Positions 13,400 to 14,893 of a stretch of 64,000 nucleotides of DNA are shown here, one piece after another (the first letter of the stretch is position 1; each line of letters starts with the position of its first letter). Origin of the DNA: an uncultured Spirochaetota bacterium (GTDB taxonomy: Bacteria > Spirochaetota > UBA4802 > UBA5550); contig CALMRZ010000023.1 in the NCBI GenBank assembly GCA_937872225.1, forward strand, positions 1 through 64,000, in the 5' to 3' direction. Under the pieces are notes generated by a model. That model searched no databases. It was not told where the DNA came from and saw only the letters and a program-made list of their open reading frames with translations. The position numbers and the translations under genes were made by a program.

Positions 13400-13582
13400 T
13401 TACTTCTTGACTTCTTCTTTCTTCTCTTCTTTTTTCTCTTCGCCAGCGGGAGCTGCTTCGTCAGCTTTTTGTTCTTCTACTGCGGGCTCTTCCGGTTTGT
13501 CAGCTTTTTTGCAAGCAACAAAGCCAGCGCTGAAAGCGAGAGCAAAGATGGATACGAAGATCAAAGTAAAAATTCTTTTCAT
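13400..13582 (-). CDS. small Lys/Glu-rich lipoprotein
   Basis: A 60-residue protein with a basic start (MKRIF), a hydrophobic core and a Cys near residue 24 in SAGFVACKKA, a plausible spirochaetal lipobox. The mature part is almost entirely Lys, Glu, Ala and Pro and is likely disordered. AGAAGGAG 9-10 nt before the ATG is a strong ribosome binding site, and the gene has its own AT-rich promoter region and terminator, which suggests strong expression. Small abundant lipoproteins are common in spirochaetes. The function is unknown. Confidence 0.75.
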   Translation of the reverse strand: MKRIFTLIFVSIFALAFSAGFVACKKADKPEEPAVEEQKADEAAPAGEEKKEEKKEEVKK

Positions 13583-13807: not shown

Positions 13808-14893
13808 TTAAATAAAGCCGGCCAGATTCTTTGATATTTTTTCCACATCCTTTCTGCTAAGGGTTGGATATACAGGAAGGGAGAACAGCTTCCTTGAGAG
13901 GCGCTCGCTGTTGGGAAAATCGGATCCATTCAGTCCGAGGAGGCTGTGAAGGGGACAGGCAATGGGCCGAACCACTTCAATCCTGTTCTTTCTCCAATAT
14001 GTTTCAACCTTTTCATTGGACAGGTTGAACTGTACCGGAAAAGCCTGGTAGGCAAATCGGTCATTATACTGAAAGGGCGTTTTATGGGGGGTTATGCGGA
14101 TGGAATCGTGGTAAATCCGCGCTATTTCCCTTCTCCGGTGAAGCAAATCGGCCAGTTTTGCCAGTTGCGAAATGCCCATGGCTCCCTGGAAATCGGTCAT
14201 GGAATAGTCAAAATGGATATGTTCCTCCCCATTGCCCCGGAAATCCTTCATTACCGAATAATTTTTTGAATTATTGGTAAATATCATGCCGCCGTTTCCG
14301 GTGGTGATAATTCCAGCCGGGTCGAAGGAGGCGATGGTAAAGGCTCCAAGCCTGCCAGTCGGAACTTCGTCTATCTCGGTTCCAATGGCATGGGAAATGT
14401 CTTCTATAACGGGCAAGTGGAGTTCCTCAAGGCCCTGGGTCGGAAAATGAAAGCCGAAAAGATGGCCGATAATGACCGCCTTTGTCTTTTCGGTTACCAT
14501 CCCCTGTATGTCCGCTATGGTCGGGAAAAGGGAGTCTTTCTCAATGTCAACCAGGACGGCCTTGCCCCCGGTCATGGTGAGGGCGCTCAGGGGGGCCTGA
14601 GAAAAGTAGGAAGGCATGATTATTTCATCGGCATCACCGATTTCCAGGGCCTTGAAAACCAGGTGATAGGCCGCCGTAAGGGAGCTTGTCGCCACGGCAT
14701 ATTTAAGGCCTATCATTTTTGCCAGGGTCGATTCAAAGGTTTTCACCGATTCGCCCGCAACCAGGTCATCGTTGATGAGGCAGTCCAGGACCGCTTCAAG
14801 TTCTTTCCGGGTAATGGTGGGTTTGCTGGATACGATCTTCATACCCTTCCCTTTCGCATGTGTTTCCGGTATTATAACTGATGGGTTGTTCAT
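13808..14893 (-). CDS. DegT/DnrJ/EryC1/StrS-family protein lacking the PLP lysine
   Basis: A 361-residue protein with the full fold-type I aminotransferase layout of the sugar aminotransferase family: an N-terminal segment VAGESVKTFESTLAKMIG, the cofactor-contact segment SSLTAAYHLVFKAL, and VIEDISHAIGTE with the Asp that pairs with the pyridine nitrogen. The usual Schiff-base motif SFHPTK-xxTTGEGG here reads SFDPAGIITTGNGG. Gly194 (codon at 14312-14314) replaces the Lys and Asn replaces the Glu. Transamination is therefore unlikely. It could be a dehydratase-like variant, a binding protein or a decayed enzyme, but the frame is intact. The first ATG has GGAG at 15 nt; a second start 17 codons in is possible. 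Confidence 0.85.
   Translation of the reverse strand: MNNPSVIIPETHAKGKGMKIVSSKPTITRKELEAVLDCLINDDLVAGESVKTFESTLAKMIGLKYAVATSSLTAAYHLVFKALEIGDADEIIMPSYFSQAPLSALTMTGGKAVLVDIEKDSLFPTIADIQGMVTEKTKAVIIGHLFGFHFPTQGLEELHLPVIEDISHAIGTEIDEVPTGRLGAFTIASFDPAGIITTGNGGMIFTNNSKNYSVMKDFRGNGEEHIHFDYSMTDFQGAMGISQLAKLADLLHRRREIARIYHDSIRITPHKTPFQYNDRFAYQAFPVQFNLSNEKVETYWRKNRIEVVRPIACPLHSLLGLNGSDFPNSERLSRKLFSLPVYPTLSRKDVEKISKNLAGFI

Follow-up and report, generated by a model that had tools for sequence, protein, structure and literature searches.

The gene at positions 13808-14893 of the window (the whole 64,000-nucleotide stretch of DNA analysed, from an uncultured Spirochaetota bacterium) encodes a DegT-fold protein in which glycine occupies the place of the PLP Schiff-base lysine, and most of its relatives across the Spirochaetota have likewise replaced this lysine. 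The analysis suggests that this is probably a maintained Spirochaetota-wide pseudo-aminotransferase, which would serve as a non-catalytic binding or scaffold protein in a housekeeping role.

The gene and its missing lysine

Translation of the minus-strand frame yielded 361 aa without a stop codon or frameshift, in agreement with the first-pass annotation of the frame, the strand and the motif SFDPAGIITTGNGG. The features of the gene are as follows.

13808..14893, minus strand: lysine-less DegT-fold protein of 361 aa (344 aa if the start is Met18); PF01041, E 9.7e-62; AlphaFold2 pLDDT 85.3
14840..14842, minus strand: Met18, alternative and likelier start codon; family profile match from 14842, pLDDT below 50 for residues 1-18, start of the orthologue L012
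14600..14602, minus strand: Ser98, replacing the aromatic residue that contacts the PLP ring (Phe or Trp in 29/30 canonical paralogues)
14399..14401, minus strand: Asp165, retained equivalent of the pyridine-N1 Asp (Asp in 87/88 rows of the lysine-less groups)
14327..14329, minus strand: Ser189, retained PLP-phosphate Ser (kept in the window's order, mostly lost in other lysine-less groups)
14312..14314, minus strand: Gly194 (codon GGA), at the PLP Schiff-base lysine position by alignment to the engineered Ala of ArnB K188A and perosamine synthase K186A
14294..14296, minus strand: Asn200, replacing a conserved Glu/Asp (Glu205 of Spr1654) in the site table; role from PMC5936713
14207..14209, minus strand: Asp229, replacing the amino-donor-binding Asn/Lys in the site table; role of Lys257/Lys241 from PMC5936713

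The true start is probably Met18 (14842) and not the ATG at 14893, because this is where orthologues begin and because the model shows residues 1-18 as disordered. The protein is a member of PF01041 (DegT_DnrJ_EryC1), with 209.7 bits against a curated cut-off of 19.8. PseC (TIGR03588) was the best equivalog match, at 177.3 bits against a cut-off of 423.5; PseC and all other NCBIfam equivalogs scored far under their cut-offs and were rejected as the identity of the protein. The AlphaFold2 monomer model, built from 16 sequences, had a mean pLDDT of 85.3 and a pTM of 0.85 and adopted the PLP fold type I. Its PDB matches included ArnB and others, the best being ArnB structures with TM-scores of 0.84-0.88 (ArnB K188A at the top, 0.85). 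The fold is thus preserved, as had been proposed.

The motif SFDPAGIITTGNGG aligns with SFxxxK...TTGEGG, with Gly194 in the lysine slot, and HMMER placed Gly194 opposite the mutated Ala of both ArnB K188A (4oca) and GDP-perosamine synthase K186A (3dr4). Lys was present at this position in 30/30 canonical paralogues from Spirochaetota, and the Schiff-base lysine of a PLP-dependent sugar aminotransferase is absent from the window protein. The first-pass annotation had allowed that the true Schiff-base lysine might lie elsewhere or that 14312-14314 might contain a sequencing error. A stand-in lysine was ruled out by a check of the lysine columns over residues 139-300, none of which exceeded 50% conservation among the lysine-less relatives. 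Close homologues sharing the glycine were found, since it is kept in 6/6 same-genus assemblies (window included); these encode it by three different codons (GGA, GGC or GGG), which excludes a sequencing error.

Against the nearest orthologue, dN was 0.092, dS 1.26 and dN/dS 0.073, the other pairs being near synonymous saturation. The gene is under strong purifying selection, which bears out the view of a maintained non-canonical protein without the PLP lysine. A sequencing error or decaying pseudogene, which would account for the missing lysine and nothing else, therefore has a negligible probability, given the intact reading frame, the glycine in six assemblies by three codons, the dN/dS of about 0.07 and a lysine loss common to families across the phylum.

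Among 103 family sequences, position 194 is Lys in 7, Arg in 9 and neither in 87 (Met 33, Asp 18, Gly 13, Ser 10, His 6, Glu 3, Asn 2, Cys 1 and one other). The Lys194 members belong to five families (f9, f14, part of f15, f16 and f25) and the Arg194 members to the rest of f15 and to f44, and Gly194 is confined to the window's genus and a few distant members. Because the replacement residue varies across the family, glycine itself is not the selected feature, and the trait is the absence of lysine.

Residues of the former active site

The residue roles used here were taken from a structural study of Spr1654 and ArnB, in which the equivalents of Asp165, His168, Ser189 and Thr73 contact N1, O3' and the phosphate of PLP in Spr1654 and in which roles are described for Glu205, Lys257/Lys241 (amino-donor) and His196 of Spr1654 (PMC5936713). 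The N1-Asp is present in the window protein as Asp165. The aromatic residue at the PLP ring is missing (Ser98); across the listed family rows, site 98 is Pro, Asp, Ser, Asn or another residue, with an aromatic only as two Tyr, plus some His, and the lysine-bearing members are likewise non-aromatic, with Pro or Asn. At the sites of Glu205, Lys257/Asn and His196 of Spr1654, the window protein carries Asn200, Asp229 and Asp191, respectively, and the change of the nearby Glu to Asn had been recognised correctly from the start. Glu/Asp200 is absent from most family members, and site 229, canonically Asn/Lys, has become Asp or Glu in the majority of lysine-less members that do not belong to the Treponema-like class.

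Moreover, Arg293, which is invariant in canonical rows, is missing from nearly all family members, and the family has also lost His310, Tyr/Phe311 and Tyr224 of the canonical enzymes. Since these four positions, nearly invariant in canonical sugar aminotransferases and some of them on the substrate side, are changed and no sugar-nucleotide cluster was seen in the gene context, the first-pass proposal that the protein binds a sugar nucleotide is not supported. The active-site losses are partly present already in the lysine-bearing members. On the defining features tested, the protein appears to fall outside the functional class of PLP sugar aminotransferases.

The core of the protein is kept, as are Asp165 and other residues. 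A family-specific set comprises Thr197, Gly201, Asp234, Gln243 and Pro340, and T197, D234, G240 and Q243 are near invariant in lysine-less members and variable in canonical ones. In the window's order, Ser189 and His168 are fully kept and Thr73 mostly so, whereas the other lysine-less groups have mostly lost all three.

The window protein resembles ArnB, PseC and GDP-perosamine synthase (PF01041) in fold (TM-score about 0.85 with ArnB), domain order, N1-Asp, TTGxG loop and length, which is near 350-380 aa. Unlike these enzymes, it lacks the Schiff-base Lys, the ring aromatic, Glu/Asp200 and Arg293, carries Asp instead of Asn/Lys at 229, and has no sugar-nucleotide gene context. ColD (GDP-4-keto-6-deoxymannose 3-dehydratase), which has His at the lysine position and keeps PLP chemistry, also combines the DegT fold with a replaced lysine, but the window protein has Gly194 and thus lacks the ColD-defining His, as had been stated. 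This His occurs in 6/103 relatives, from families f11 and f22 (L054, L055, L060, L062, L078 and L093), and all six lack the Ser for the PLP phosphate and the aromatic residue at the ring. LCB1, the fold-type I pseudo-subunit of serine palmitoyltransferase, is likewise a maintained lysine-less protein of PLP fold type I; however, it belongs to another subfamily and forms an obligate heterodimer with LCB2, whereas the window gene has no linked partner gene. The first-pass annotation had missed that the trait is phylum-wide, that glycine is one of many replacements, and that the ring aromatic and amino-donor residues are gone as well.

Distribution, neighbourhood and descent

With the protein alone as query, 174 of the 393 sampled genomes of Spirochaetota gave a match at E <=1e-30. 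The family profile A3, built from 30 members, found the family in 305 of the 393 at E <=1e-65; seven hits have E values from 1e-65 to 1e-69, at least two being real and up to five perhaps paralogues, and the family total is about 300. With a trial profile close to A3, held-out members reached 280 bits or more, apart from one divergent sequence at 204, and no canonical paralogue exceeded 233. The gene is mostly single-copy and near-universal among the sampled Spirochaetota, and divergent members extend into the class that holds Treponema-like genomes. An exact-peptide-pattern scan of genome contigs matched only three relatives, all spirochaete; this low-sensitivity scan was the sole look beyond Spirochaetota, and restriction to the phylum is not proven by it. 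Plasmid-borne relatives were set aside, as the 845 records that match P0001 all have <60% identity and are weaker than family members.

The family gene is also present, at 467 kb, in a reduced 1.14-Mb genome (G056) that is a single contig of 1,139,633 bases; this genome is probably Treponema pallidum Nichols, and its family gene would then be TP0440. None of the f39 genomes, which are Borrelia-like by size (0.9-1.9 Mb), was among the family-positive genomes in the profile A3 survey. A link to motility was rejected because FliM and the family gene are not co-distributed: the f39 genomes have FliM and lack the family gene, and the reverse (family gene, no FliM) holds in f49 genomes, for instance in G224, G225, G226 and G234. 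The sequence family and the fold were already known, and the phylum-wide lysine-less branch is not described in the open-access literature searched, in which no description of a lysine-less DegT family, or of TP0440 in that respect, was found. PLP-fold pseudoenzymes are few in number, and to our knowledge none has been described in bacteria that is fixed throughout a phylum.

The gene is an orphan among housekeeping neighbours. At the loci examined, neither a sugar-nucleotide gene cluster around the gene nor an adjoining canonical DegT gene was seen, and no neighbour is common to the entire phylum. Three arrangements were found. RlpA is divergent from the gene in the window's order; QueD lies downstream on the same strand, often nearly abutting, in several families of the window's order and in f18, f27 and f44; and GlgC/D-like or CheW precedes the family gene, NAD kinase and RecN in f10, f12, f14, f21, f28 and Treponema-like families. 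Because the last arrangement holds both lysine-bearing (L072, f14) and lysine-less members, these are positional orthologues.

Several neighbouring genes were observed in passing. QueD (6-carboxytetrahydropterin synthase) lies directly 3' of the gene, often within 30 bases, at L045-L050, L057, L071, L097, L156, L166 and L168-L171, loci that are spread over families of the phylum. In the window genome QueD is elsewhere (G000:C21:10344), and the stretch that separates the gene from its neighbour in the window was searched for a QueD remnant and holds none. In many families (L064, L068, L085, L104, L202-L208 and others), and also in the T. pallidum-like genome, NAD kinase and RecN are followed by an unnamed protein of about 270-300 aa, the L064 copy of which is without a Pfam match. 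Downstream of the gene in the window, and likewise on the minus strand, lies a 60-aa ORF (MKRIFTLIFVSIFALAFSAGFVACKK..., 13400-13582) that looks like a small Lys/Glu-rich lipoprotein.

The trees mostly track taxonomy, and the canonical paralogues separate with a support of 100. The family is vertically inherited and appears to be ancient. A single loss of the lysine fits the tree, at a support of only about 28, and the Lys/Arg changes within f15 and f44 are separate events.

Possible functions of the family

Three other explanations are possible, in falling order a PLP-independent enzyme, a protein with non-covalent PLP and a dead heterodimer partner. An enzyme whose cleft was remodelled to catalyse another reaction, around Asp165, Thr197, Asp234 and further residues specific to the family, would account for a conserved set that exceeds the canonical one (T197, D234, G240 and Q243) and for a near-universal, mostly single-copy gene at housekeeping-like loci. 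However, the former active site shows no obvious conserved dyad of a catalytic kind, residues at and next to position 194 are free to vary, and a pathway context is absent, which makes such an enzyme unlikely. Slightly less probable still is that the cleft, at least in the window's order, would bind PLP or PMP non-covalently and carry out cofactor chemistry, ColD-like or otherwise. The conserved Asp165, His168, Ser189 and mostly Thr73 of that order, equivalents of Spr1654 residues (PMC5936713), and the ColD-like His194 in six members of two families are consistent with this possibility; but the ring-contacting aromatic, Glu/Asp200, the amino-donor residues, Arg293 and the substrate-side His310/Tyr311 are gone, and Ser189 and His168 are mostly missing from other lysine-less groups.

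A strong DegT-family match was also present in 60/60 sampled genomes, and DegT enzymes form dimers whose subunits share active sites. The family protein could thus be a catalytically dead subunit in a heterodimer with a canonical DegT enzyme of the same cell, as LCB1 is with LCB2. This is improbable, and well behind the two preceding alternatives, as no canonical DegT gene adjoins it at the loci examined and the canonical paralogues are diverse and variable, whereas the family gene is near universal.

In the reading preferred here, that of a binding or scaffold protein without catalytic activity, the family presumably descends from a PLP sugar aminotransferase akin to ArnB, PseC or perosamine synthase. 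The first losses would have been those of Arg293 and of the aromatic residue at the PLP ring, followed by that of the Schiff-base lysine, which some lineages exchanged for Arg and others for Met, Asp, Gly, Ser or His. The retention of the fold and of a family-specific conserved set under purifying selection suggests that the protein would act without PLP transamination. It would most likely be a homodimer, by analogy with the enzymes of the fold, and its emptied cleft or surface may take a ligand or partner in a housekeeping role. Several observations argue against this reading. Asp165 is almost invariant, and Ser189, His168 and mostly Thr73 are kept in the window's order, which would be odd if nothing cofactor-like ever bound there. 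In addition, five families have members that retain Lys194, and a single lysine loss, at a support of about 28, is not backed by the tree.

The aminotransferase labels on genes of this family are probably wrong in hundreds of genomes, including those of spirochaete pathogens. The Lys-bearing, Arg-bearing and lysine-less orthologues, some of them at matching loci, offer a natural series in which to study the passage from a cofactor enzyme to a non-enzyme. The chances seem about even that this is a phylum-defining family, kept even in a 1.14-Mb genome, whose fold was stripped of its cofactor and substrate sites and recruited to an undescribed non-PLP housekeeping function. As a near-universal spirochaete gene that is absent from small Borrelia-like genomes, it is a tractable candidate for a phylum-specific function.
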